From: Burkholderia sp. BCC0506
GTDB taxonomy: Bacteria > Pseudomonadota > Gammaproteobacteria > Burkholderiales > Burkholderiaceae
Direction: 5' to 3'
NCBI RefSeq assembly: GCF_902833145.1
Contig: NZ_CADFEN010000006.1
Span: forward strand, 1-64,000
Length of the DNA: 64,000 nucleotides
The notes below the pieces were generated by a model, which ran no database searches, was not told where the DNA came from, and saw only the letters and a list, made by a program, of their open reading frames with translations. The translations under genes and the position numbers were made by a program. Shown piece after piece: positions 58,608 through 58,950 of the stretch (position 1 is its first letter; each line of letters opens with the position of its first letter).

Positions 58608-58637
58608 TTGACACGCGGCCGCATCCTGGCATAGAGT
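58608..58637 (+). promoter_or_regulatory. sigma-70 promoter for leuA leader transcript
   Basis: TTGACA (58608-58613), 18-base spacer, TAGAGT (58632-58637). The predicted start is near 58644, at the leader-peptide ATG. Confidence 0.8.
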
Positions 58638-58644
58638 GGCCGTC

Positions 58645-58719
58645 ATGCGTTCCTTTCCGAACACCCTCCGAATTACCTCCGGCCGCCTAGCGCGGCCGCT
58701 ATCGCTACGACTAGCCTAA
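58645..58719 (+). CDS. leucine-rich leader peptide upstream of leuA
   Basis: 24 codons (MRSFPNTLRITS... then GRLARPLSLRLA) followed by TAA. Five leucine codons, four of them CTA at codons 15, 19, 21 and 23; CTA is conspicuously scarce in neighbouring genes, where leucine is CTG or CTC. The frame starts at the predicted transcript end with no Shine-Dalgarno of its own. The position and codons fit a ribosome-stalling sensor of charged tRNA-Leu for leuA. It is too short for similarity methods, so the call rests on codon choice, position and the overlapping hairpins. Confidence 0.75.
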   Translation: MRSFPNTLRITSGRLARPLSLRLA

Positions 58720-58751
58720 GGCTGACGTAGCGCCGTGTGCTGTCCGCACGG
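58681..58751 (+). promoter_or_regulatory. attenuator-type hairpins in leuA leader
   Basis: Three successive hairpins. H1 GGCCGC/GCGGCC at 58681-58697 covers leucine codon 15. H2 (C)GCTACG..AGCC / GGCT..CGTAGC(G) at 58703-58732 covers codons 20-24 with the TAA stop as its loop. H3 CCGTGTG/CGCACGG lies at 58733-58751. A C-rich tract and TTTTT follow at 58788, but no stem immediately precedes the T run, so termination may be Rho-dependent. Confidence 0.6.
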
Positions 58752-58950
58752 TCCTCCCGGCAGTTCCTCGCAGTACCCCTCTCGCAGTTTTTACAACCCG
58801 AAGTCGTCAGCCTTCGTCCGTCTATCCGTCGGCCGATTCGCGAAGATCATCCGCATCCGCGGCGCCATCGCGCGCCGGGATGCGAGGCAGCGCCAACCGT
58901 CGCCCATGCCGCCCGTCTTCGCTCGCGACTTGAGACCCGAGGTCCAGAAG

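Follow-up and report, generated by a model that had tools for sequence, protein, structure and literature searches.

A putative leaderless leader peptide rich in leucine codons upstream of leuA in Burkholderia sp. BCC0506 and its relatives

Control of leucine genes by leader peptides is a classical form of regulation. In this study, we analyzed computationally the region upstream of leuA, the gene for the long form of 2-isopropylmalate synthase, in a 64,000-nucleotide (nt) stretch of the genome of Burkholderia sp. BCC0506 (hereafter the window), where a short open reading frame (ORF) rich in leucine codons lies between promoter and gene. In our survey of leuA loci with named sources, which took the 80 best of 560 confirmed stretches, the nearest named relative of the LeuA protein is that of Burkholderia sp. 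MS389, with 97% identity. The features of the locus are as follows; the values for the hairpins P1 to P3 come from the covariation alignment described below.

58608-58637, plus strand: sigma-70 type promoter TTGACA-N18-TAGAGT, from a promoter scan, with boxes and spacing compared in relatives
58645-58719, plus strand: leader ORF of 24 codons, apparently leaderless, with five leucine codons (one CTC and four CTA)
58680-58698, plus strand: hairpin P1, with CTA codon 15 in its loop; pairing in 91.3% of cells, change on both sides in 4 of 7 pairs
58703-58732, plus strand: hairpin P2; pairing in 96.5% of cells, change on both sides in 1 of 9 pairs
58733-58751, plus strand: hairpin P3; pairing in 89.9% of cells, change on both sides in 4 of 7 pairs
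58751-58803, plus strand: C-rich, G-poor tract with repeated GCAGT, a candidate Rho loading region by composition only
58803-58843, plus strand: conserved stem-loop module GUCGUCAGC...CGCGA, from sequence comparison
58939-58942, plus strand: Shine-Dalgarno (SD) sequence of leuA (GAGG), which a small putative hairpin, GACC-CGA-GGUC, may include or adjoin (by eye)
58951-60597, plus strand: leuA (2-isopropylmalate synthase, long form), function by homology

The promoter consists of TTGACA at 58608-58613 and TAGAGT at 58632-58637, with an 18-nt spacer, and is the single promoter-like site returned by the scan (shuffle mean 0.0). Seven bases separate the end of the -10 box from the ATG of the leader ORF at 58645. 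This ORF translates as MRSFPNTLRITSGRLARPLSLRLA, ends with a TAA stop codon at 58717-58719, and is followed by an untranslated region (UTR) of 231 nt before the leuA start. Between promoter and gene there is, as expected of an attenuator, a short ORF enriched in codons for the amino acid that is made. Its leucine codons are CTC at codon 8 and CTA at codons 15, 19, 21, and 23. Across 43 long ORFs from the window, CTA accounts for 13 of 1526 leucine codons (0.85%). The chance of at least four CTA among five leucine codons is 2.6e-8 against this background, which is approximate because the ORFs were picked mechanically. TTA is rarer still, with one occurrence among the same 1526 codons. Among 13 long-armed tRNA stretches fetched from the draft assembly, ARAGORN recognized leucine tRNAs with the anticodons UAG (one), CAG (three), GAG (two), and CAA (one), and none with UAA.

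The leader is well conserved within the genus. We collected 61 genomes and read 60 of them, leaving out G031, whose leuA sits at the edge of a contig. All 60 have an intact ORF of 24 codons, and none shows a change in the four CTA codons, in CTC, or in the TCG and CGA that separate the final CTAs. Counting only codons whose residue is constant in all 60 genomes, no third-position change is seen in 15 of the 17 leader codons that can be tested, versus 17 of 55 codons of leuA, which argues that the RNA or the codons are constrained, beyond the peptide alone. Outside the genus, a leader whose peptide terminates in L(S/P)LRLA precedes the orthologous leuA in 32/32 fetched loci from other genera of the family (L083-L114; L numbers are our handles for loci), and the dominance of CTA is kept across Burkholderia and its sister genera. 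The genome also contains a second leuA copy, 62% identical, with its own leader, and this paralogue has a leader of its own in 11/11 fetched loci; the paralogue loci L063-L072 and some further loci were hand-picked from longer lists. The core motif TCGCTACGACTA matches twice in 7.29 Mb, once in each leuA leader, and the backward control pattern matches three times, so that the number of matches is ordinary and their placement unusual.

In the survey of named loci, leaders of the leaderless type were recognized in 46 of 80 loci, compared with 5 of 800 shuffled sequences and none of 80 reverse complements. The type thins out with phylogenetic distance: an ORF rich in leucine codons and next to a promoter was picked up in 11 of 29 loci sampled from the order and in 2 of 26 sampled from the phylum. 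Three loci of another order of the same class (L186-L188) carry an identical ORF of 25 amino acids, MKTAHTLILLRQHACLRLVSPRLRG, before leuA, with a possible -10 box directly upstream.

A transcript that starts at the usual distance from a -10 box placed seven bases before the ATG begins at or next to that ATG, and this geometry is widespread. Among 102 leaders selected by their peptide ending alone, nine of which (L074-L082) duplicate other loci in the set, the distance from the end of the -10 box to the ATG is 6-7 nt in 92; in the remaining ten it is 8 nt (four), 9 nt (four), or 11 nt (two), some of these being ties between overlapping -10 boxes. In a wider set of 161 distinct leaders, picked by a rule that already demands a promoter 3-10 nt upstream of the ATG, the distance is 6-7 nt in 144. 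An SD-like 4-mer at the usual place was found in only one of these 161 leaders versus 218 of 282 leuA genes examined by the identical rule. The leader ORF is apparently leaderless, its start codon lying at or next to the predicted 5' end of the transcript.

Hairpins overlap the end of the ORF; all three, P1, P2, and P3, are present in the predicted fold. In P2, the last leader codons pair with the sequence behind the stop codon, and the UAA lies in the apical loop. In an alignment of 54 hand-picked sequences (22 from the genus and 32 from other genera), the three hairpins together show standard pairs in 92.9% of cells, and 9 of their 23 pairs have changed on both sides. None of 500 shuffles matched the observed values on four measures and 34 of 500 did so on a fifth (further pair types), although such controls overstate significance among related sequences; sliding the pairing partners abolishes the pairing. 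The covariation of P2 is due to a single pair, 69:91 (AU 23, UG 11, CG 6, UA 6, unpaired 8), which is formed in 46 of the 54 sequences and is mismatched, A with A, in the window itself. The whole UTR of 306 nt is only mildly more stable than its shuffles (z -1.90), 5 of 100 of which fold equally well or better. Two longer-range pairings were considered and rejected. Pairing of GGCUGACG with CGUCAGCC (58720-58727 with 58805-58812) has no mismatch in the window, but the genus consensus, inspected by eye, disrupts it. A long helix (58801-58806 with 58926-58931) appeared in the genus fold, but the family alignment favors a local hairpin, in which no pair is compensated.

Downstream of P3, the sequence is C-rich, not U-rich. 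Positions 58751-58820 contain 28 C and 14 G, an excess reached by 1.1% of the 70-nt windows in the 64 kb. The corresponding tracts, recovered for 101 of the 102 leaders selected by peptide ending, average 39% C and 17% G over 70 nt, with C exceeding G in every one. The motif GCAGT occurs three times in 58751-58803, and similar repeats recur in relatives. The scan found no terminator-like site within 58540-59000 and, among 192 loci with leaderless-type leaders, none in Burkholderia; a terminator-like hairpin followed by a U run was found behind a similar leader in 8 of the 192, from distant relatives, which hints that control acts on transcription. In one locus from another family of the order (L166), the leader is rich in CTA and a strong hairpin with a U run comes after it, an arrangement that looks, by eye, like a classical attenuator. 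Further downstream, the stem-loop at 58803-58843 (GUCGUCAGC..UCG.CCG..CGG.CGA..CGCGA) is kept in sister genera, as judged from an alignment of 37 of 59 distinct sequences. An N-terminal extension of LeuA from the long open frame was also considered and rejected, because small indels between species shift the frame (by eye).

Many of these features had been proposed in an original prediction made from the letters of this stretch. Its promoter with a 24-codon ORF at the predicted transcript start, the five leucine codons with four CTA that are scarce nearby, the absence of room for an SD sequence, the three successive hairpins with UAA in the loop of one, the lack of a classical terminator before leuA, and the C-rich tract were all recovered here. 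The conserved ORF and CTA codons and the covarying stems that it named as the things to look for in relatives were found as well, the latter with the qualification that P2 covaries by one pair.

On the basis of these comparisons, the leader ORF is very probably a leucine sensor for leuA. The complete mechanism that we propose, to which we give an even chance, is that of a leader-peptide attenuator in which the supply of Leu-tRNA would control leuA through a leaderless ORF, with Rho-dependent termination as the output. We regard the sensor as well supported; Rho-dependent termination we infer, and among the possible outputs it appears the likeliest. Judging from the promoter-to-ATG geometry, transcription would start at or next to the leader AUG, and ribosomes would have to initiate at a bare 5' end. 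When Leu-tRNA(UAG) is plentiful, the ribosome would pass the four CTA codons and exit at the UAA in the loop of P2; P1 to P3 would then reform, the C-rich tract would be free for Rho, and most transcripts would presumably end before leuA. When leucine is low, the ribosome would wait on CTA codons 15-23, opening or covering the 5' arm of P2, and the altered leader RNA may let more polymerase reach leuA.

The leaderless leader (type A) is not the only kind found before leuA. A second kind (type B), with an LPIGCRA-like ending, lies close to the gene. Of the 80 named loci, 27 have type A only, 22 type B only, 19 both, and 12 neither; by chance, type B was recognized in 3 of 800 shuffles and in none of 80 reverse complements. 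Type A stands alone in Burkholderia, Paraburkholderia, Caballeronia, Trinickia, Herbaspirillum, Methylobacillus, and Zoogloea, among others, and type B alone in, among others, Cupriavidus (6/6), Pandoraea, Achromobacter (4/4), and Bordetella (2/2). Both types occur in Massilia (6/6), Janthinobacterium (3/3), Duganella (4/5), Rugamonas, Noviherbaspirillum, and others. A type B leader was thus seen just upstream of leuA in 41 of the 80 named loci, and also in L119, L122, L123, L126, L127, L131, L148, L149, L151, and L152; tandem arrangements of A and B before one leuA were seen in 19 of the 80 and also in L115-L117, L153, L227, L230, L249, and others. Eighteen of the 19 named tandem loci belong to genera that we take to be Oxalobacteraceae or that are titled as such, and the remaining one is from Paralcaligenes. 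The leucine codons of type B are complementary to the leuA SD sequence in several loci (z -2.86 in L222, -3.9 in L224, and -4.81 in L244), whereas overall the complementarity is modest (mean z -0.73, n=50 including doubles, with 18% below -1.64).

A further element recurs in the sister genera. Between leader and leuA, a second small ORF led by an SD sequence (MHVA.. or MHAA..) was found by a pattern search in 28 of 43 loci (L083-L087, L089, L090, L092-L096, L103-L106, L108, L109, L209-L216, L218, and L237), named Paraburkholderia and Caballeronia included. This search covered the sister genera alone, and it missed L107, whose second ORF is divergent. The second ORF ends at about -40 to +23 of the leuA start, a position that suggests translational coupling.

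The enterobacterial leu operon leader, represented in Rfam as Leu_leader, also carries CUA codons. The locus described here resembles it in having leucine codons in a leader peptide and leucine synthesis genes as the controlled target, and differs from it in lacking an Rfam match and a terminator and in having an apparently leaderless ORF. A search with the 4227 Rfam models gave no covariance-model match, only weak matches, in the window or in ten relatives. No description of a betaproteobacterial leuA leader of this kind was found in the literature searched, which mostly excludes subscription journals; the main texts of a differential RNA-seq paper on Burkholderia cenocepacia (PMC4603805) and of a Cupriavidus metallidurans paper (PMC7563307) do not mention leuA, and a terminator-based screen misses, by its own statement, cases that depend on Rho (PMC2965389).

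A close likeness is to the leuA leader LeuL1 of Streptomyces lividans, which is likewise a short, leucine-rich ORF before leuA with no typical Rho-independent terminator and is transcribed leaderless, as is predicted here, although its peptide of 15 amino acids has another sequence, MRFGLLLLSCRGEGL, and its host belongs to the Actinobacteria (PMC8079986). The actinobacterial LEU element, of which a pseudoknot is one feature, similarly has a leader ORF with a run of leucine codons before leuA, but it has another RNA fold and these codons base-pair with the SD sequence of leuA, a complementarity that the leader type of the window lacks; the type B leader of other genera is closer to it (PMC1262725). 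In Sinorhizobium meliloti, the trpL leader ORF is tied to attenuation, and its ATG is the 5' end of the RNA. Our leader shares with it a proteobacterial leader peptide ORF that starts at the RNA 5' end (here by geometry), whereas trpL responds to tryptophan, precedes trpE(G), and frees a small RNA upon attenuation (PMC7298713). The proline-codon leader ORF mgtP of Salmonella mgtCBR offers a precedent for a codon-rich leader ORF that senses one charged tRNA and controls transcription, and for tandem leader ORFs; it differs in its signals, proline and ATP, and its abstract does not name Rho (PMC3641672). In Escherichia coli toiL/topAI, the position of the ribosome on a small upstream ORF sets expression and premature Rho-dependent termination ensues, but there the sensed agents are ribosome-targeting drugs and the ORF acts on the ribosome-binding site, with Rho coming second (PMC12121999).

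Several observations weigh against the proposed mechanism. The toiL/topAI precedent fits equally well a control of translation in which termination is secondary (PMC12121999). The hairpins are successive rather than alternating, as the title of the original prediction had called them, and mutually exclusive pairing conserved across genera was not found. With a ribosome modelled on CTA codon 19, the 3' arm of P2 is released and finds its partner entirely inside the C-rich tract in 4 of 17 leaders, at its edge or partly inside in another 4, and elsewhere or nowhere in 9. A C-rich composition is a weak indicator of a Rho utilization site, terminator-like sites occur seldom among the relatives too (8/192), several more distant leaders have mostly CTG or CTC in place of CTA, and the generous shuffle controls mentioned above belong in the same balance. 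The most serious competitor, possible though in our judgement unlikely, keeps the same leucine sensor and places the output in translation, through access to the leuA ribosome-binding site or coupling via the downstream small ORF, with loss of mRNA as a secondary effect. It draws on the small hairpin touching the leuA SD sequence, which changes on both sides together (GACC-CGA-GGUC, GCC-..-GGC; by eye), on the second ORF of the sister genera, on the SD-complementary leucine codons of part of the type B leaders, and on the window itself, in which the modelled openness of the SD sequence is 0.39 with a ribosome stalled on CTA codon 19 and 0.29 with a finished one (+0.10). However, among the 17 modelled leaders, going from a finished to a stalled ribosome increases the openness in 8, lowers it in 6, and leaves it the same in 3, with a largest change of +0.26 (L096), an inconsistency for which we rejected sequestration of the SD sequence by the leader state. 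Pairing of leaderless-type leaders with the SD sequence was likewise rejected, being no better than in shuffles (mean z +0.34, n=192 including doubles) in contrast to type B, and the second ORF escaped the pattern in 15 of the 43 loci. The original prediction had allowed for either a Rho-dependent or a translational mechanism; its idea that leucine governs leuA by way of a leaderless ORF gains from the comparative test, whereas its alternating hairpins and its translational arm are not clearly supported.

Attenuation of the classical kind, by an intrinsic terminator too cryptic for simple scans, is improbable. The eight terminator-like hairpins among the 192 loci and the arrangement in L166 would fit such a scheme, but the scans showed no terminator in the leader region of the window or in the Burkholderia loci, and the sequence behind P3 is C-rich. 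Some other action of the leader ORF or RNA, such as protection of the mRNA 5' end, a peptide acting in trans, or a protein binding the GCAGT repeats, seems less probable still. A leader peptide, peTrpL, is reported to act in trans (PMC7298713), and both the repeats and the 58803-58843 module are conserved; the leucine richness, the CTA bias, and the steady linkage to leuA are nevertheless best explained by leucine sensing. That the ORF arose by chance, or that the DNA is conserved without a regulatory role, we consider very improbable: the mildly unusual fold of the whole UTR would agree with it, but the controls (5/800 and 0/80), the covariation, and the codon conservation contradict it. Taking together the missing terminator, the C-rich tract, the inconsistent effects on the SD sequence, and the U-run hairpins of relatives, we favor control at the level of transcription through Rho.

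Viewed across the genera surveyed, these leaders allow a broader proposal, which we advance tentatively and to which we give less than an even chance. The long-form leuA of betaproteobacteria may be governed by an undescribed two-tier system of leucine leaders, in which the leaderless tier would act on transcription and, in the tandem arrangement of the Oxalobacteraceae, an SD-proximal tier with the LPIGCRA-like ending would act on translation. The first tier would be Rho-dependent in Burkholderia and its kin and would use intrinsic terminators in some relatives; Burkholderia would have the first tier only, and Cupriavidus and most of the Alcaligenaceae surveyed the second only. Across many genera of one bacterial class, the leaderless start seems to belong invariably to a probable amino acid sensor, and the terminator that would usually execute its decision is missing. 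Two questions come together in this short RNA: can initiation at a bare 5' AUG track the supply of an amino acid tightly enough to permit attenuation, and is a leader peptide read by Rho? In the relatives, the tandem leaders suggest a modular split between transcriptional and translational control of one enzyme.
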